Both the position numbers and the translations under genes were made by a program. A stretch of 64,000 nt of DNA. Source: Plantibacter flavus (GTDB lineage Bacteria > Actinomycetota > Actinomycetes > Actinomycetales > Microbacteriaceae). The stretch spans positions 558,001-622,000 of the forward strand of contig NZ_FXAP01000002.1 in NCBI RefSeq assembly GCF_900177615.1. The letters are read 5' to 3'. The notes beneath the pieces were generated by a model. The model was not told the origin of the DNA. It was given only the letters and a program-made list of their open reading frames with translations, and ran no database searches. Of the stretch, positions 38,611-49,342 are shown one piece after another (position 1 is the stretch's first letter; each line of letters begins with the position of its first letter).

Positions 38611-39063
38611 ATGTCGAAAGTGATTCTGACGCACGAGGTCTCCGGCCTCGGCTCCGCTGGTGACGTCGTCGACGTCAAGAACGGCTACGCTCGCAACTTC
38701 CTCGTGCCCCAGGGTTTCGCGACCCCGTGGACCCGCGGTGGCGAGAAGCAGGTCGAGCAGATCAAGTCGGCCCGCGCTGCGCGCGAGCACGCCACGATCG
38801 AAGAGGCCCAGGACCTGAAGGCTCGCCTCCAGGCCACCAAGGTCAAGCTCACGGTCAAGACGGGTGGCGAAGGCCGTCTGTTCGGTTCCGTGAAGCCTGC
38901 CGACATCGCGAAGGCCGTGGCGGAAGCCGGGCTGGGCGAGGTCGACAAGCGCAAGATCGAGATCCACACCCCGATCAAGTACGTCGGCGAGCACGAGGCC
39001 ACCATCAGCCTCCGCGACGAGATCGTCGCCACGATCACCCTTCAGGTGGTCGCGGCCAAGTAG
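38611..39063 (+). CDS. rplI: 50S ribosomal protein L9
   Basis: A 150-residue large-subunit protein: the N-domain with [18 protein letters not shown], a long connecting helix ([10 protein letters not shown]) and the C-domain ending [19 protein letters not shown]. It closes the operon; a clear intrinsic terminator follows. Confidence 0.97.
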
Positions 39064-39121
39064 TACCCGCCGTGCGGTGTCGGGCCTTCGGGTCCGACGC
39101 CACATGCACGTCGTGATGAGC

Positions 39122-39163
39122 GCGATGGCGGTGGACCGAGAGGTCTACCGCCATCGCGTTTTT
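39122..39163 (+). terminator. intrinsic terminator of the rpsF-rplI operon
   Basis: GCGATGGCGGTGGACC pairs with GGTCTACCGCCATCGC over 16 positions with one mismatch, then GTTTTTC follows. This is a textbook Rho-independent structure. Confidence 0.9.
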
Positions 39164-39632
39164 CTGTGCCTGGAACAGGGGTGATGTGTCGTCCCGATAG
39201 CTGTGCGCTACACCCGTTTCGCCCTCTGCGTCAAGCAAGTTGTACACAGGTGACCCCCGTTCTCCCCAACGTTCGACACAGGATCGAAAGAACTTTCCAC
39301 ACACAGCCTGTGGAATCAGAATCTCCTGGTCAGAGCCGTGTTACACGACAGAAAAACTTCTCTCTCCACAGGGTTTCCCACAGCTTGTGCACACGACACG
39401 CGGCGTTTCCCCCGATCTCTCCACAGAGTTATCCACAGGCAGAGTTGGTTGTGGAGACGAGTGGCCCTATCGTGAGTCATCGGCGTCTCGGAACAGCCGG
39501 ACGAGCAGGCTGAGCAGCCCTCGTCCGTAGCCCTCGAGCGCCCCGCAGGTCCCGTGCGTGTCGCATGCTCCTGCTACACCTGAGTCGTCACCACCCGCAC
39601 CACCCGAGTCCACATCGAGAAGGGATGTCCAC
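39164..39632. promoter_or_regulatory. dnaB upstream region with clustered DnaA-box-like 9-mers
   Basis: This 470-base gap has no gene. One exact DnaA box TTATCCACA lies at 39429-39437. Close variants include TTGTACACA (39240-39248), CTTTCCACA (39293-39301), GATTCCACA on the reverse strand near 39309, CTCTCCACA (39362-39370 and 39417-39425), TTTCCCACA (39374-39382), TTGTGCACA (39385-39393) and a reverse copy near 39449. It is A/T-richer than its surroundings. It may control dnaB by DnaA, or act as a DnaA-titration or origin-related site; dnaA and dnaN are not in the window. Confidence 0.6.
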
Positions 39633-41012
39633 TTGTCGATCGCTCACCTGGGCCGCTCCGAAGGCGGCGGATCGTACGACGAGCCGCGCGGCAATGAGCG
39701 GGTCCCTCCGCACGACCTCCTCGCGGAGCAGAGTGCACTCGGCGGCATGCTGCTGTCGAAGGACGCGGTCGCCGACGTGGTCGAGACGCTCCGTGGGGTG
39801 GACTTCTACATCCCCAAGCACGAGGTCATCTACGACGCCCTCCTGACGCTGTACTCGCACGGTGAGCCCACCGACGTCATCACCGTCACCGACGAGCTCG
39901 TCAAGACGGGCGAGCTGTCGCGCGCCGGTGGTGCTGACTACCTCCACACGCTCACGAGCCTCGTGCCGACCGCGGCGAACGCCGGCTACTACGCCCGCAT
40001 CGTCGCGGAGCGCGCGCTGCTGCGTCGTCTCGTCGAGGCCGGCACCCGCATCGTGCAGATGGGGTACGCGGCCGAGGGTGAGGCCGTCGAGCTCGTCAAC
40101 TCCGCTCAGGCGGAGATCTACGCCGTCTCGGGCAACCAGGAGGTCGAGGACTACGTCCCGCTGACCGACGCGGTGAGTGCGGCGATCGATGAGATCGAGG
40201 CCGCCAAGCACACCGACGGTTCCATGACCGGCGTCCCGACGGGCTTCCGCGAGCTCGACGAACTGACGAACGGTCTGCACCCGGGTCAGCTCATCATCGT
40301 CGCCGCCCGACCCGCTATCGGTAAGTCCACGCTCGCCCTCGACTTCGCACGTGCCGCTTCGGTCCACTACAACCAGCCGTCGATCTTCTTCTCGCTCGAG
40401 ATGGGGCGCAGCGAGATCGCGATGCGTCTCATGAGCGCTGAGGCGTCCGTGCCGCTGCAGCTCATGCGTAAGGGAACGGTCGACTCGCAGGACTGGACGA
40501 AGATCGCACAGGTGCGCGGCCGCATCAACGACGCTCCGCTCTACATCGACGACAGCCCGAACATGACGCTCGTCGAGATTCGCGCGAAGTGCCGTCGACT
40601 GAAGCAGCGCGTGGGTCTGAAGATGGTCGTCATCGACTACCTGCAGCTGTTGACGTCCGGCAAGCGGGTCGAGAGCCGTCAGCAGGAGGTCTCGGAGTTC
40701 TCCCGTGCGCTGAAGCTCATGGCGAAGGAGCTCCAGGTCCCCGTCATCGCGCTGTCGCAGCTGAACCGTGGTGCTGAGCAGCGTGCCGACAAGATGCCGG
40801 CACTGTCCGACCTCCGTGAGTCGGGCTCGATCGAGCAGGACGCCGACATGGTGGTGCTCCTGCACCGTGAGTCCGCCTACGAGAAGGACAGCCCGCGAGC
40901 GGGCGAGGCCGACCTCATCATCGCCAAGCACCGTAACGGACCGACGCGCACGATCACCGTCGGCTTCCATGGGCACTTCTCGCGCTTCGCCGACATGGCG
41001 CCGGGGATGTAA
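39633..41012 (+). CDS. dnaB: replicative DNA helicase
   Basis: A 459-residue ring helicase unwinding DNA at the fork. The N-terminal primase-interacting domain (AEQSALGGMLLSKDAVADV) is followed by the RecA-like core: Walker A-type ARPAIGKST, SLEMGRSEIAMR, Walker B-like MVVIDYLQLL and the LSQLNRGAEQR loop. No intein is present. TTG 39633, with GAAGGGA upstream, gives the usual start SIAHLG; an upstream in-frame ATG (39558) would add a Pro/Ser-rich leader. The C-terminus (FADMAPGM) is intact, and a Tn7-like element begins 21 bases after its stop. Confidence 0.96.
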   Translation: MSIAHLGRSEGGGSYDEPRGNERVPPHDLLAEQSALGGMLLSKDAVADVVETLRGVDFYIPKHEVIYDALLTLYSHGEPTDVITVTDELVKTGELSRAGGADYLHTLTSLVPTAANAGYYARIVAERALLRRLVEAGTRIVQMGYAAEGEAVELVNSAQAEIYAVSGNQEVEDYVPLTDAVSAAIDEIEAAKHTDGSMTGVPTGFRELDELTNGLHPGQLIIVAARPAIGKSTLALDFARAASVHYNQPSIFFSLEMGRSEIAMRLMSAEASVPLQLMRKGTVDSQDWTKIAQVRGRINDAPLYIDDSPNMTLVEIRAKCRRLKQRVGLKMVVIDYLQLLTSGKRVESRQQEVSEFSRALKLMAKELQVPVIALSQLNRGAEQRADKMPALSDLRESGSIEQDADMVVLLHRESAYEKDSPRAGEADLIIAKHRNGPTRTITVGFHGHFSRFADMAPGM

Positions 41013-42650: not shown

Positions 42651-43003
42651 GTCCGCAGCCTAGAACCCAAGCGGTCGTTTTCGGTACTCGGGGTTCTGCG
42701 CCAACAGTGATCTTCTGCTGCGATTCGGCAGACCGCCATGCCATTTCGACGGATCGCTTTCGACTCGTTTACGAGTTGATGTTCGGAGCCAATTGACTCG
42801 TCATCCCTCTCGTGGAGCCGGTCAGAGTCGCTCCTTGGTGGATCAATTTCTCACGAGAACTGTGCGCAGGCAGCTGCTGCGGCCTACGGTTTCGATCAAC
42901 GACCACGCCGCGATCAGAGCGCGCGGTTCGTTCATCTCGTCGCCCCTCGTCCGAGTATCCCCGGGGCAGCTTCGTCATGCCCGGATGCGGCAGAAAGGTC
43001 ATC
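42651..43003. promoter_or_regulatory. divergent control region upstream of tnsA
   Basis: No convincing gene lies in this 353-base gap. It holds the perfect palindrome ACTCGTTTACGAGT at 42763-42776 and related short words GGTCGTTTTCGG (about 42673) and GGATCGCTTTCG (about 42750). These could be regulator or TnsB-binding sites between the reverse AbiEi-like gene and tnsA. Confidence 0.4.
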
Positions 43004-44002
43004 ATGAGCGCCCGCACTCTTCGCGCGTCACAGCACAACATTCCTCAGTCACGCACTGAGCCGTCCAGCTCTCCGGCGCACGCCCCGGCCGAGCTGCCGG
43101 CGCCGTCATCGTGGGAGTCAGCGCTGCCCCCCAGTGAGCACCCCGACACGGTTCCGCCAGAGCTGCAGTCAGCATTGGAGAAGTTCCGGCTGGCCGGCAT
43201 GCTCGGGGAGGGCACGCGTGTGCGACTGTTCAGGCCGATCCGTGGACCCCGTCGACTTCGGCTGCCGCAACGGTCTCCGGGTGACGTCGGGGTGAGGGTC
43301 TTACTTTCCCGCGACGGGCGCACAGGCTACGCTCGCCGCCTCAACCAGGTCAGCCTGGCCGACCTGGTGCACAGCCACCCGATGCGCGACTTTTCCAGAC
43401 GCCGGGCACAGAGTAACAAGCCGGTCGCGTTCTTTAGCCGGACCGTCGGTGACATGATCGCTTGCGAATCCCAACACGAGCGCCGCTTCGCGCTGATCGC
43501 CGACTGGCATCCGAGCGTGGCGTTCATCGCCGCGCAACCATTCACCATCGACTTCCCCGCCGGCAACGACATTGACAGCCACACACCGGACTTCGCGCTC
43601 ATCACCACCAGCGGAACCGTGGTCGTCGTGGATGTGAAGTGGCCATCCCACGCCGTCGACCCCGACACGGTCCGTCGCCACGAGCTGATCGAGCGCACCC
43701 TCGCGCGTGCGGGAATGCAGCACGCAGTGTGGACCGGCGCCCCCATGTCGCTCACGCAGAACCTCGCCAACTTCGCGGCCGCCCGGGTACCGGAACACAA
43801 GATGCGTGAGCTGGAACCAAAGCTCCTCGCCGCCCACCGGCCCGGACGCACCGTCTCCCAGGTGCTGGAGGACGCCGCTGACACCTGTCAGGTGCCCTGG
43901 CTGGAAGGACTCGTCGTGGTGCGCCGGATGCTTTGGGACCACCGCCTCACCGTCGACATGGCGGTCCCCTTCACGGTCGATTCCGAACTGTTCCGATCGT
44001 GA
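43004..44002 (+). CDS. tnsA: TnsA-like transposon endonuclease
   Basis: A 332-residue protein that in Tn7 nicks the 5' ends of the transposon, enabling cut-and-paste. The restriction-endonuclease-like core shows E155 in ACESQHERRF, D196 in THTPDFALI-type context and K212 in VDVKWP, matching the E...D...VK catalytic set of TnsA. The Pro/Ser-rich N-terminus (about 60 residues) is not conserved. ATG 43004 follows AAAGG. The stop overlaps the tnsB start (GTGA). Confidence 0.87.
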   Translation: MSARTLRASQHNIPQSRTEPSSSPAHAPAELPAPSSWESALPPSEHPDTVPPELQSALEKFRLAGMLGEGTRVRLFRPIRGPRRLRLPQRSPGDVGVRVLLSRDGRTGYARRLNQVSLADLVHSHPMRDFSRRRAQSNKPVAFFSRTVGDMIACESQHERRFALIADWHPSVAFIAAQPFTIDFPAGNDIDSHTPDFALITTSGTVVVVDVKWPSHAVDPDTVRRHELIERTLARAGMQHAVWTGAPMSLTQNLANFAAARVPEHKMRELEPKLLAAHRPGRTVSQVLEDAADTCQVPWLEGLVVVRRMLWDHRLTVDMAVPFTVDSELFRS

Positions 44003-46164
44003 GCGACATTCGATGGATTCGGCCAGGGATCGAACTCGACTGGCACAGCACTCGCATGATCATCCAGCACGTCGGCGCCTATGTCGTCCTCACCCGGCTC
44101 GACGGCACCCAACCCACTGAAGTGCCCGTGACCGACATCGCACGCGCGCTGCGTGGCAACAAGGCACCCCAGGATCTCGCGCATCTGCATGACATCGAAG
44201 ACCGTCTCACGGAACGCTCCAAGGCGCGGCTGGATCACGACTCCGACCTGCTCCACATCATGCTCACCGGCCGGCGCGCACACCAACCCGACACGGATGC
44301 TCCCGCACCCAACCTCGATCCAGCCCGCGTCCCCGAAGGGCTTCGCCGGCGCAGACTCGCCAAACTGCTCGCGGAACAGACACGCGACCGCGGCTCAATG
44401 AAGGGATTCAACGTGCTCCACAAGAGCGAGATGCGAAGACTGCAGCGGATCATGAAGCGGTGGCGCGACGGACAGAACCTCCTCGACGGCAGGTACCGTA
44501 AACCCCGAGCCTGGCGAACCGATGATGAGGTCATGGACGCCCTGCTGAGCTTCATGAACGACCAAGCCGTGCGCTCGACGAAGTCCGACAGTGCACTCGT
44601 TCGGGCATTCCAGATCCACGCGACCACAGCCCACCCGACGTTGCAACTGCCCTCAACTGCAACCCTTCGTCGGAGGGTGCAGGAGCGGCGCGGCGCCTGG
44701 TCACACCTCGGGGCGACCGCGAAGAACCGCATCTCCCAGACCAACGTTCCGAAAGCCTCGGGAGTGACGCGCCTGGCGACCCGTCCCGGGGAGCTGGTGT
44801 TGTTCGACACCACGAAGTCGAATGTCTGGGTGAAAGACCCCAGAACCGGTCGCGTCGTCCGCCTCGATGTCACGCTCGCCATCGATCTCGCCACCCGATG
44901 TGTGGTGGGACTGGCTATCACGTACAACACGACGAAGTACGCGATCGGACTGTGCCTGGCCGATGTGCTGCGACCCAAGACCGCGGCCCTGGCATCCGAG
45001 TGGGCAGAGGATGAAACCTCCATCGCCGACCAACCGTTCATCGGCAGACCCGGCGCGTTCGTGTCGTTCCACTCGACCGCGTTCCACCCCGAGGGTGTCG
45101 TCGTCGACAACGGCAAACAGTATGTGTCCACGTACATGACGGCGCAGATGGCGCGGCTCGGGATCCACTACGAACCGCAACGCTCTTACAACCCGACCGA
45201 CAAGGCGCAAGTCGAGCGCGTGTTCCGCACGATCAAGGACATGTTCGAAGCACTAATGCCGGGCTTCACGGGCGGATCTGTCCACGAACGAGGCACCGCA
45301 CCAGAAGCCGAAGACCTGATGACACCAGGCGAATACGAACGACGGCTGCGCCAGTGCATCGACCTGTACAACCACCGCACACATGAGGGCCTGGTCCTGC
45401 CCGAGGACCCGTTCGTGCGGTTGAGCCCCTACGTGATGTTCAGCATCCTGGCCGAGAAGATCGGAGCTTTCGCAGACGTCGAGTACCAGTACGACTGGGT
45501 GCGGTTCCTTCCCTCGATCACGGCGAAGATCGAGCCGAGCCGAGTTCGCGTGCGACTGCTGAACTACAAGAGCCCGATCTTGCGAGAGCTCCAGGGCGAC
45601 CCGGTCGTGATGAAGACCGGAAACCTGCGGGTGTTCTACGACCCGTTCGACCTCCGCATCGCCTGGTGCTTTGACGCCGATGGCACGCTGCACCCGCTGC
45701 GGTGGCACTACTTGAACGAACACACTCCCCGGTTCGGGGAGATGCACACCACCCACGTCGTCGAGAAATACGCCGGCAAGAAGGTCAGCCGAAACGACGT
45801 CGAACGCATCCTGCTCGAGATCTTCGCAGGCAAACACGACCAGGGTATGCCGGAAGGGATCCGACACGACGAACTCGCCAACAACCTCATGCAAGCACGA
45901 ACGGACCGACTCACCGAATCCCAACGAGATGCAGCCCTCCAGGAAGAACCCGACGCAATACACGAACAGCGCCCGCCTGCGTCCGAACCTCGACCCCACG
46001 ATCGCGGCGTCGGCGACAGTGCCAACACGTATGAACCGCCGCCCGTCGAACCATTCGAGCCCGATGACACTTCCGAAGCGCAGGACGAGCAGGGCCCGCA
46101 GCGCTCCGCGCGACGTCCGCGAGGTCTGCGCCCGTGGTGGCACCGTGACCGGCCCGAATCGTGA
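43999..46164 (+). CDS. tnsB: TnsB-like DDE transposase
   Basis: A 721-residue strand-transfer transposase of the Tn7/Mu-type rve superfamily. The catalytic triad is D270 (VLFDTTKS), D370 (VVVDNGKQY) and E406 (QVERVFRTIK), a D...D-35-E spacing. N-terminal DNA-binding helices precede the core (ARRRRLAKLL-like segment and TLRRRVQER), a beta-barrel domain and an acidic, Pro-rich tail follow, the latter likely to contact TnsC. GTG 43999 overlaps the tnsA stop. Confidence 0.9.
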   Translation: MSDIRWIRPGIELDWHSTRMIIQHVGAYVVLTRLDGTQPTEVPVTDIARALRGNKAPQDLAHLHDIEDRLTERSKARLDHDSDLLHIMLTGRRAHQPDTDAPAPNLDPARVPEGLRRRRLAKLLAEQTRDRGSMKGFNVLHKSEMRRLQRIMKRWRDGQNLLDGRYRKPRAWRTDDEVMDALLSFMNDQAVRSTKSDSALVRAFQIHATTAHPTLQLPSTATLRRRVQERRGAWSHLGATAKNRISQTNVPKASGVTRLATRPGELVLFDTTKSNVWVKDPRTGRVVRLDVTLAIDLATRCVVGLAITYNTTKYAIGLCLADVLRPKTAALASEWAEDETSIADQPFIGRPGAFVSFHSTAFHPEGVVVDNGKQYVSTYMTAQMARLGIHYEPQRSYNPTDKAQVERVFRTIKDMFEALMPGFTGGSVHERGTAPEAEDLMTPGEYERRLRQCIDLYNHRTHEGLVLPEDPFVRLSPYVMFSILAEKIGAFADVEYQYDWVRFLPSITAKIEPSRVRVRLLNYKSPILRELQGDPVVMKTGNLRVFYDPFDLRIAWCFDADGTLHPLRWHYLNEHTPRFGEMHTTHVVEKYAGKKVSRNDVERILLEIFAGKHDQGMPEGIRHDELANNLMQARTDRLTESQRDAALQEEPDAIHEQRPPASEPRPHDRGVGDSANTYEPPPVEPFEPDDTSEAQDEQGPQRSARRPRGLRPWWHRDRPES

Positions 46165-47318
46165 ACGCCTCCCGGTTCTCTGTCACCCCAGACGACGACC
46201 CCAACGAGTTACTCACCGCCGAGGACCGCGCCTGGATCAGTGACGTGTACGCCGACGATGTCCTCGACCCTGGGCGCGTTACTCCCGCACAACTGGCGGC
46301 GATGAACGCTCGCGACCGAGAACGCTACCGGATGCAGCGCACCCGGTATCTGCGCATGGTGCCGTTGCTGGAGACCAGCGTCGTCAGGGACGTCATGGGC
46401 AAGCTGCGCCTCATCGCCAACTCCGCCATCCGCTCGGACCTGCACCAGCAAGACATCCCGATCCTGAACGGAGAGCCCGGTGTCGGGAAAACGATGATGC
46501 TGAAAACGCACGCGGCGGAGGAGATGATGCGCCTGGCGTTGCACCGCAGCATTGAACTCGAGGACGGCACCGCCAGGGCGCTCACCACGTTCCGGCCTGT
46601 CATCTACGCCCACCTGAAGAGCACCATGACCCGCTACGACGTCATCCGGCTGTTGTGTGATGAACTCGGCTGGCCCTCTGACCGGAACCCGCAACGTGCG
46701 TTCGAACGAGCCGTCGCGCAGTGCGGTGTCCAGCTGGTCATCATCGACGAGATTCAGCACGTCAACTTCGATGGCAAGACCGGGCGACATGTGCACAACA
46801 TCATTCGTTGGATGTCGAACTTCGGCCTCCGGGTCGTCCTCGGCGGCACCGACGCCGATGGGGTGCTGAGCGGGGTGGGGGCTCCTGCTGTTGAGGTCGC
46901 CGCACGAAACTCCCGCGGCCGTTGGATCCGTGTCGACGTCCCGAAGATGGAGATCGGAGGACGGCGGGAACTTACCGCTTGGGTTGACCTGATCTTCTCC
47001 TTCGAATCCAGGCTCCGGTTAACGCAGGCTCCGCTGGAGGAGGGCTGGCTGGCCGACAACTTCGCCGAGTACATGTGGGCCAGAACCCAGGGATACCTGA
47101 ATTCTCTCGTGTTGCTGATCAATCTTGCCGCCGCGACAGCCATCGAGACCGGTGCTGAGACCATCGATCGGAAGATCCTCGACAGCGTCGAACTGGAAGA
47201 CGAAGTCGAACGTCAACGCCCGCAACGCATGGCGAAGTTCGAAGCGGACAATCCTGCACCACGGCGTGCTGAAGGTGACGATGACGGGCCGGATCTGCAG
47301 GACCGTCAAGCATCGTGA
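46161..47318 (+). CDS. tnsC: TnsC-like AAA+ ATPase
   Basis: A 385-residue ATPase linking target recognition to the transposase. Walker A is GEPGVGKT (residues 104-111) and Walker B is VIIDEIQH (D196, E197). The sensor region has VVLGGTDADGVL. It is closer in size to TniB/TnsC of Tn7-like elements than to the 555-residue Tn7 TnsC. GTG 46161 overlaps the tnsB stop. Confidence 0.88.
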   Translation: MNASRFSVTPDDDPNELLTAEDRAWISDVYADDVLDPGRVTPAQLAAMNARDRERYRMQRTRYLRMVPLLETSVVRDVMGKLRLIANSAIRSDLHQQDIPILNGEPGVGKTMMLKTHAAEEMMRLALHRSIELEDGTARALTTFRPVIYAHLKSTMTRYDVIRLLCDELGWPSDRNPQRAFERAVAQCGVQLVIIDEIQHVNFDGKTGRHVHNIIRWMSNFGLRVVLGGTDADGVLSGVGAPAVEVAARNSRGRWIRVDVPKMEIGGRRELTAWVDLIFSFESRLRLTQAPLEEGWLADNFAEYMWARTQGYLNSLVLLINLAAATAIETGAETIDRKILDSVELEDEVERQRPQRMAKFEADNPAPRRAEGDDDGPDLQDRQAS

Positions 47319-49342
47319 CCGTCGTACTGGATACGCCGATGCGACTTGGTACGCCCGTGCGGCTGCTCGAGGGGGAATGGTTGCATAGCGCCATCAGCCG
47401 GTGGGCTCACTCGTTCCGTGTTTCGCGAGCGGCCATGTTCGACGCGTTCGGGTTGCAGAACCTGCTCGCAGCTGCGGTCACCAACATCGGAACCCAGTTG
47501 CACCCGGCGATCGCCGCGAATATCTCCTACGCCACCGGCATCGAGGAGGCGCGACTTCGTGCGGCGACGATGGAGGTGTTCGACGGCAGCCTGCTCGTGC
47601 TCCGCGATCGGAGGAAGGGACAGCCGGCAGCGGGGATATCGAAACGTGGACCGTGGTCATGGCAGGCCGGCACGAGGTACTGCCCCGACTGTCTGCGAGA
47701 CGAACCGGGAGTGTTCCGCAGCCTCTGGCGCAGCCCCTGGATATACGCGTGTGTCGCACACCGCCGCATCCTCCTCGATGCCTGCCCCACCTGCCAAGGG
47801 GAGGTCGTTGAGATGCGCGGACGGAACACTGATCTGTTCAACCCCTCCAGCTGCCGGGCCCACATCGGACTGCGCGGCGCAACGCGACGAACCTACTGTC
47901 GGGCGCCGCTCGAGGACACCTGGGAGCACCTGCGTCTTGCGCCAGGATCAGCGCCATTGGCTGCGCAAGAAGCGATCTTCGCTCACCTTCGAGCAGGCAC
48001 CGGCGAGCACATCGTCACGCTCCTCCAACCCGTCGCAACGGCGCTTCGCGGCGCCGGTGCATTCGATGACGTCAGCTCGTTGAGTGGCCTCGATGAGCAA
48101 GAACTGCGTGGTCTGTTCGACGAGGAGAAACACGTCGGCATCAGCGCGCCGAAGAATGCCTACGCGATGGCCGGGCTCATCGGCGCGGCATGGGCCCTCG
48201 TGAATATGGGCGAGTTCGTCAGTGCCCCGGTGGTTCGACGGACCACGTTCGCCCGGCCGCCCGCCCACGTGCCCAGGGGCGCCGGATATGGGCCGGGAAG
48301 CCCCACCGAGCTCCTCACCCGCTGGCCGGGTGCGTCGGATGAGCTCCGAGGGTGGGTGCTTCGCGCTCACGACCAGGACCTCACACTCACCCAGCGCATC
48401 CTCTGGGACACCGCCATCACCCCGGCAACCATGGACGCCCACCGAGCTCGGACCGTGTATTTCCAGACGCGGAGGGACCGCATCCCGGAACTGCTCTGGC
48501 CGGCCTGGTGCAGCCGCTTCGACCTTGGTGGCAACGTCGACGCCACGACACTGGCGCACGCGCTCACCATCGCTGTGCGCGCGGTCGGGTTGAACGATCA
48601 AGCACGCGACCACGAAGAGAGCAACCTCGCGGCCGTCCTGCGAGCGAACATGCTGGGCACGCCCGCGCAGACAACTGCGCTCCTCGCCGGCATCAGCGAG
48701 CTTGCGCGCACGATCGATGACGGTCCCAACCCCATCAACTATCGCCGCCGATTGGAACTGCCCACGGCGGAAATGTTGCCACGGACACACTGGGAGACGC
48801 TCGCCGACAGCGTCCACACCGACCCTGGCGGAGCACCGCGACTGCGGCACGCCCGCCGCTACCTGTGGCAGCGCCTCAGCGCGACGTCCTCGGACCAGTT
48901 GCCCGCAGAGCTGCAGCTCGGGTTCACCCACGATGACGTCGCCCAGTACACCGACTTCCGAACGCGGATGACGCTCGAACTCCAAGAAGAAATTGACCGA
49001 TACGGGCAAGCATTCCTCCAAGCGCACCAGATCTGGGAGCCCGTGACGGCAACCCCAGCAGTGAGCGCCCACCTCAACTGGCCAGGCACGGAAATCCTCG
49101 AACTCAACATCGAACTTCTGCACGCAATGTTGGACGACGGCATCCGCACCCACAGAACCTTCGCCCAGGCACTCGGCGTTTCGACCCGTCAGGTAGTTCG
49201 AGCAATCGATGCTTGTCCCCCATCGACAAGCAGAGCCGTCACCTCTGTGGAGTGGGAACAGCTACTCGTACCGGTCCCGCCCAACCCGCTTTCCTCGTTC
49301 TTCGTCAGCGAACCCGAATCAACGTGGAGCGAGCCATGCTGA
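47315..49342 (+). CDS. tniQ: TniQ/TnsD-like target-selection protein
   Basis: A 675-residue protein with the TniQ start pattern (RLLEGEWLHSAISRWAHSF) and two CxxC pairs at about residues 123/126 and 157/160 that form the zinc-binding region (RYCPDCL, ACPTCQ). The large size and long C-terminal region, which contains helix-turn-helix-like stretches, match TnsD-type proteins that bind a chromosomal attachment site rather than short TniQ partners of CRISPR effectors. No Cas gene is present. The likely target is the dnaB 3' end. Confidence 0.85.
   Translation: MTVVLDTPMRLGTPVRLLEGEWLHSAISRWAHSFRVSRAAMFDAFGLQNLLAAAVTNIGTQLHPAIAANISYATGIEEARLRAATMEVFDGSLLVLRDRRKGQPAAGISKRGPWSWQAGTRYCPDCLRDEPGVFRSLWRSPWIYACVAHRRILLDACPTCQGEVVEMRGRNTDLFNPSSCRAHIGLRGATRRTYCRAPLEDTWEHLRLAPGSAPLAAQEAIFAHLRAGTGEHIVTLLQPVATALRGAGAFDDVSSLSGLDEQELRGLFDEEKHVGISAPKNAYAMAGLIGAAWALVNMGEFVSAPVVRRTTFARPPAHVPRGAGYGPGSPTELLTRWPGASDELRGWVLRAHDQDLTLTQRILWDTAITPATMDAHRARTVYFQTRRDRIPELLWPAWCSRFDLGGNVDATTLAHALTIAVRAVGLNDQARDHEESNLAAVLRANMLGTPAQTTALLAGISELARTIDDGPNPINYRRRLELPTAEMLPRTHWETLADSVHTDPGGAPRLRHARRYLWQRLSATSSDQLPAELQLGFTHDDVAQYTDFRTRMTLELQEEIDRYGQAFLQAHQIWEPVTATPAVSAHLNWPGTEILELNIELLHAMLDDGIRTHRTFAQALGVSTRQVVRAIDACPPSTSRAVTSVEWEQLLVPVPPNPLSSFFVSEPESTWSEPC

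Follow-up and report, generated by a model that had tools for sequence, protein, structure and literature searches.

DnaA Sites Upstream of Replicative Helicase Genes

The binding of DnaA in front of dnaB is already known from mycobacteria, and DnaA control of dnaB is known at the level of the regulon from Caulobacter. In Mycobacterium tuberculosis, IDAP-seq detected five DnaA-bound regions, one of them "upstream of dnaB", and ChIP-seq in M. smegmatis recovered the same five regions, including the homologous dnaB one (PMC7738170). According to the same paper, the DnaA I282T mutant combined weaker binding upstream of dnaB with lower dnaB expression. For Caulobacter crescentus, PMC8203912 cites Hottes 2005 for the membership of dnaB in the DnaA regulon.

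We investigated a window of 64,000 nucleotides from Plantibacter flavus (contig 2, positions 558001–622000; the genome comprises 4.3 Mb in 11 contigs), in which a cluster of DnaA boxes had been predicted directly upstream of dnaB. The M. tuberculosis site before dnaB (Rv0057) is like this cluster in gene, side and box type; however, DnaA binding was measured in mycobacteria, whereas it is predicted for the P. flavus array (PMC7738170). The two sites hold equal positions before dnaB, and the counterpart is also present in intermediate lineages. Homology to M. tuberculosis and M. smegmatis supports the expectation that DnaA would bind the predicted array. The Caulobacter locus is similar in that DnaA boxes lie upstream of the replicative helicase gene and DnaA controls it (PMC8203912). 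However, Caulobacter belongs to a distant phylum, and common descent of the sites finds no support in our analysis.

The DnaA-Box Cluster between rplI and dnaB

The replicative DNA helicase gene dnaB occupies 39633–41012 of the plus strand (Pfam DnaB_C, 2.5 × 10−103; DnaB, 3.3 × 10−30). Its longest open reading frame runs from GTG 39558; however, the probable start is TTG 39633, because the protein start is conserved there in the alignment and a Shine-Dalgarno-like GAGAAGGG is found at 39617. The gene upstream is rplI (ribosomal protein L9, Pfam Ribosomal_L9_N and _C; 38611–39063, plus strand), the last gene of the rpsF-ssb-rpsR-rplI operon, whose first three genes were also assigned by Pfam. 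An intrinsic terminator follows rplI (39119–39167, plus strand), with a stem of about 20 bp, the loop GAGA and a T run; its RNA fold reaches −42.5 kcal/mol (z = −8.0), a 20-pair hairpin then a T tail. This predicted terminator would separate the ribosomal operon from dnaB transcription. A search of 38900–39800 against Rfam returned no RNA family. A mobile, phage or plasmid origin of the segment was rejected, since no similar DNA occurred in phage or plasmid collections.

A match search of the window found TTATCCACA once exactly (39429–39437), together with eight two-mismatch matches, in 39240–39458. Seven of these start at 39240, 39260, 39293, 39362, 39374, 39385 and 39417 on the plus strand, and the eighth at 39450 on the minus strand. 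The count thus agrees with the one exact and about eight near-matches of the original prediction, and the stretch is A/T-richer as described (GC of the rplI–dnaB gap about 60% vs roughly 64–70% in adjacent 5-kb blocks); its end at 39456 has to be corrected, since the last near-match reaches 39458, two bases further.

The upstream part of the cluster (39240–39317, plus strand) was delimited by a weight matrix trained on oriC boxes and by mismatch matches. It contains TTGTACACA (39240), TTCTCCCCA (39260) and CTTTCCACA (39293) on the plus strand and GATTCCACA (39309) on the minus strand. The core array (39362–39437, plus strand), defined by matches, spacing and conservation, holds codirectional boxes in an 11–12-bp register, namely CTCTCCACA (39362), TTTCCCACA (39374), TTGTGCACA (39385), CTCTCCACA again (39417) and the exact box. 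Inside the array lies a conserved block that is not a box, CGGCGTTTC (39401–39409, plus strand), a run of columns kept in 29 Microbacteriaceae; it is perhaps a degenerate box plus the site of another protein.

We compared the cluster with the background around the origin, where 341 matches with up to two mismatches to TTATCCACA occur in 382 kb, or 0.19 per 217 bp. Nine matches in 217 bp have a Poisson probability of about 9 × 10−13, and no other 217-bp stretch of the 382 kb reaches this number. The observed box score of the rplI–dnaB gap was reached by none of 100 dinucleotide shuffles. The weight matrix, for which the oriC boxes of relatives were the sole training data, recovers the boxes of the dnaB array, and the box family upstream of dnaB is that of the genome's own oriC. 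Because words resembling TCCACA occur frequently between actinobacterial genes, the cluster might be ascribed to chance or to the composition of an AT-richer gap. This reading is ruled out, its probability being negligible, by the Poisson and shuffle results together with the conservation across families and the deficit of substitutions given below. The predicted cluster upstream of dnaB is therefore real.

Conservation across Actinomycetes

DnaB loci were drawn from GTDB genomes and from whole-genome sets of the family, order, class and phylum. The box score before dnaB exceeded all 100 shuffles in almost all loci of Microbacteriaceae, Arthrobacter and Streptomyces, and the array is also conserved before dnaB in Nocardioides. 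With the oriC-trained weight matrix, an excess of boxes before dnaB was found in most other sampled families of the class Actinomycetes. Boxes upstream of dnaB are also present in family f22 (loci L189, L243 and L244), which its DnaB inteins suggest to be Mycobacteriaceae. Lack of conservation had been named as a result that would speak against the original prediction; among the relatives the array proved to be conserved.

The boxes before dnaB are absent in families f12 and f7 and in Rothia, all of the same order, in which dnaB is kept. Six loci of f7 and f12 (L146, L147, L151, L153, L307 and L308) lack boxes before dnaB, although DnaA boxes persist in the dnaA regions of these relatives. Since some lineages of the order have lost the boxes before dnaB yet keep the gene, its control by DnaA is dispensable. 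In other classes of the phylum (L190–L198) box arrays before dnaB are mostly absent, and weak ones occur in family f29 (L207–L210), outside the class Actinomycetes.

The position of the array was compared with its neighbours. In Streptomyces, about 2 kb separate the end of rplI from dnaB, and the boxes are still found 250–600 bp before dnaB. The array is kept at dnaA–dnaB distances between about 17 and 453 kb; in genome G001 (locus L111), which has the largest distance, the array consists of seven sites, two of them exact. On these comparisons, the cluster follows dnaB, not rplI or oriC.

The same data bear on a DnaA titration or datA-like inactivation site, which would lower free DnaA, would be doubled early in replication and would stand before dnaB incidentally. 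The datA site of Escherichia coli and the box clusters of Streptomyces coelicolor and Bacillus subtilis likewise lie outside the origin, mostly near oriC, and act by titration or ATP-DnaA hydrolysis; for the S. coelicolor and B. subtilis clusters, a restraining effect on initiation has been reported (work cited in PMC5742627). The dense boxes here lie 91 kb from oriC and from dnaA (contig 2 506406–506891), and typically about 20 kb away in relatives, which would suit such a site. However, distance to the origin rather than a promoter should then matter, whereas the array tracks dnaB even at the 453 kb of G001 and ends in a fixed register with the dnaB promoter. Titration is thus a tentative possibility, and it may also operate alongside control of dnaB.

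Spacing and Orientation of the Boxes

The spacings between codirectional boxes fell into classes of 10–13, 20–24, 32–35, 42–46, 53–57, 64–68 and 75–79 bp, with almost none between them, and several classes were found in different families. In total, 757 of the 977 boxes point towards dnaB. The vector strength was 0.77 at 11.0 bp in 173 loci (jitter null 0.06, at most 0.125) and 0.70 with one locus per family (null maximum 0.25); the sampled loci are homologous, so that these statistics are not fully independent, and the one-per-family test reduces this dependence but does not remove it. The oriC regions of relatives gave 0.71 at 10.8 bp. In E. coli oriC, the low-affinity boxes face one direction with 2-bp gaps, so that the unit of the array is 11 bp (a 9-bp site plus 2 bp; PMC4451416). 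That array is like the present one in its codirectional boxes and its 11-bp unit beside a strong box, an arrangement that suits cooperative filling; however, it faces an unwinding element there and a promoter here (PMC4451416).

The box type and the 11-bp phasing shared with oriC might suggest a second or former replication origin beside dnaB. However, the genome has a complete oriC between dnaA and dnaN, 91 kb off, which includes boxes as well as an AT-rich stretch. The boxes at the dnaB array are nearly all of one orientation, whereas those of oriC take both, and the array abuts a promoter. Its form is also unchanged whether dnaB lies 17 kb or about 450 kb from dnaA. The minimum GC content over 30 bp was 0.40 at the dnaB array vs 0.30 at the genome's own oriC, a suggestive difference that falls short of significance in relatives (p = 0.06). 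Cumulative GC skew over the 382 kb was noisy, too much so to place the origin alone. Because the boxes nearly all face one direction, a promoter adjoins them and oriC lies elsewhere, a second origin is very improbable, and the earlier suggestion of an origin-like element separate from dnaA finds no support.

The Predicted dnaB Promoter and Its Register with the Array

The elements of the dnaB promoter were identified by conservation. The predicted −35 element TTGGTT (39445–39450, plus strand) stands 7 bp past the last strong box, with its TTG conserved and its register fixed, and the predicted −10 element TATCGT (39468–39473, plus strand) follows after a 17-bp spacer, with TA..GT conserved. 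Transcription of dnaB would be expected to start near 39480. A sigma-70 scan requires a match to 9 of 12 consensus bases and for this reason found no promoter.

In the alignment of 29 Microbacteriaceae, the conserved boxes are followed by the conserved TTG and TA..GT. The pattern TTG-N-TAnnnT occurred within 60 bp past the last box in 46 of 66 Microbacteriaceae loci, compared with 1.8 in shuffles, and the distance from the last box to TTG was exactly 7 bp in 34 loci and 8 bp in 6. Among the other loci, the pattern followed the last box in 65 of 133, with exactly 5 bp in 35 (shuffles, 2.0). Against the congener G050, the array and promoter differ at 4 positions in 186 bp vs 70 in 387 bp for the remainder of the gap (p = 4 × 10−9), and 39232–39302 holds 1 difference in 71 bases. 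The array and promoter are apparently under purifying selection.

The minus-strand near-match GTCTCCACA (39450–39458) lies between −35 and −10. It is possibly incidental, because its columns are not conserved across the Microbacteriaceae alignment. This box would be in place for repression of dnaB by DnaA, resembling the autoregulation at dnaA, whose promoter is often repressed by DnaA itself (PMC8203912). However, every conserved box is upstream of −35, and in M. tuberculosis weaker DnaA binding accompanies lower, not higher, dnaB expression (PMC7738170). We therefore consider repression unlikely.

Proposed Control of dnaB by DnaA

The best explanation of the cluster, with a probability of roughly 0.78, is a regulatory array that binds DnaA at the dnaB promoter and on which a DnaA oligomer would activate dnaB. 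Sequence comparison establishes that the array is present, exceeds chance expectation, is conserved and phased, and stands in register with the predicted promoter. From these features we infer that DnaA oligomerises at the array and that its effect on dnaB is activation rather than repression, because the array lies upstream of the promoter and because of the mycobacterial mutant. In this mechanism, DnaA, probably in its ATP form, would nucleate on the strong box at 39429–39437 and would spread as an oligomer over the codirectional weaker boxes repeating every 11–12 bp, a packing unit that oriC shares. Its downstream end would leave 7 bp before the −35 hexamer, and the centre of the box would lie about 47 bp from the predicted transcription start, where activators typically bind. 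Since the oligomer would end just upstream of −35, the output of the dnaB promoter should follow DnaA activity, which would set it in this way.

DnaA control of dnaB, one of the roles first proposed for the cluster, is thus well supported by class-wide conservation, the promoter register and a mycobacterial counterpart bound in vitro and in vivo (PMC7738170). Because the arrangement is kept in most actinomycete families examined, it suggests that helicase supply, too, is under the control of the replication initiator.

A wider reading, which we find as easy to doubt as to accept, is that a directional 11-bp DnaA array in register with −35 belongs to the dnaB promoter in most of the class Actinomycetes, that an orisome-like oligomer acts there as a class-II-type activator coupling helicase supply to initiator activity, and that oriC, rpmH-dnaA, the crgA flank and this array make up an ancient four-site DnaA network.

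The mycobacterial account, in its available sections, describes no 11-bp register, fixed promoter distance or conservation beyond mycobacteria (PMC7738170). Our literature search likewise found no description of class-wide conservation, the 11-bp register or the fixed promoter distance, although work from 2006 on Streptomyces clusters may cover part of this. What is new here is the class-wide conservation of the dnaB array, the 11.0-bp multiples, the fixed distance from last box to promoter and the near absence of substitutions relative to the congener. The mycobacterial DnaA site thereby becomes an old and widely conserved actinomycete feature that includes Streptomyces and Microbacteriaceae. 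The phased array in its fixed promoter register leads directly to a prediction, namely that the replicative helicase gene is transcriptionally activated by a DnaA oligomer. This offers a way to test whether the activity of the initiator is linked to the supply of helicase in bacteria in which the control of initiation outside oriC is poorly understood.

Other DnaA-Box Clusters in the Genome

The top four mismatch-scored clusters in the 382 kb were the crgA flank (contig 2 492940–493066; L005 12940–13066), oriC between dnaA and dnaN (505394–505643), the dnaB array (597240–597458) and rpmH-dnaA (507284–507470). Exact copies of TTATCCACA number 20 in the genome, 12 of them within contig 2 492970–670534. 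The first cluster lies between crgA and a rhomboid-like gene, which is followed by a ppiA-like gene. We take Rv0011c to be crgA and Rv0009 to be ppiA; by these gene neighbours, the cluster is the positional counterpart of the Rv0010c-Rv0011c site. Four of the five mycobacterial DnaA sites (oriC, rpmH-dnaA, Rv0010c-Rv0011c and dnaB) thus correspond to the four densest clusters here (mycobacterial sites from PMC7738170). Boxes were also found at the crgA flanks of many other actinomycete genomes. The M. tuberculosis counterpart of this cluster has been linked to isoniazid tolerance.

Two further exact boxes, each followed by a near-match, occur at contig 2 512169 and 512489 (L002 12169 and 12489), between rsmG-like and parA-like genes near oriC. 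Another two, on one strand and 65 bp apart, lie at contig 2 670461 and 670526 (L015 8461 and 8526) in a lower-GC island, and might be part of a replication or regulatory region of that island. This stretch of about 80 kb (contig 2 595–680 kb, GC about 0.61–0.65) is probably an integrated island. It includes a row of Tn7-like transposition genes just downstream of dnaB (42812–49342 of the window), namely TnsA-like (a weak Pfam match), TnsB-like (Mu-transpos_C, rve), TnsC-like (AAA_22/TniB) and TniQ.
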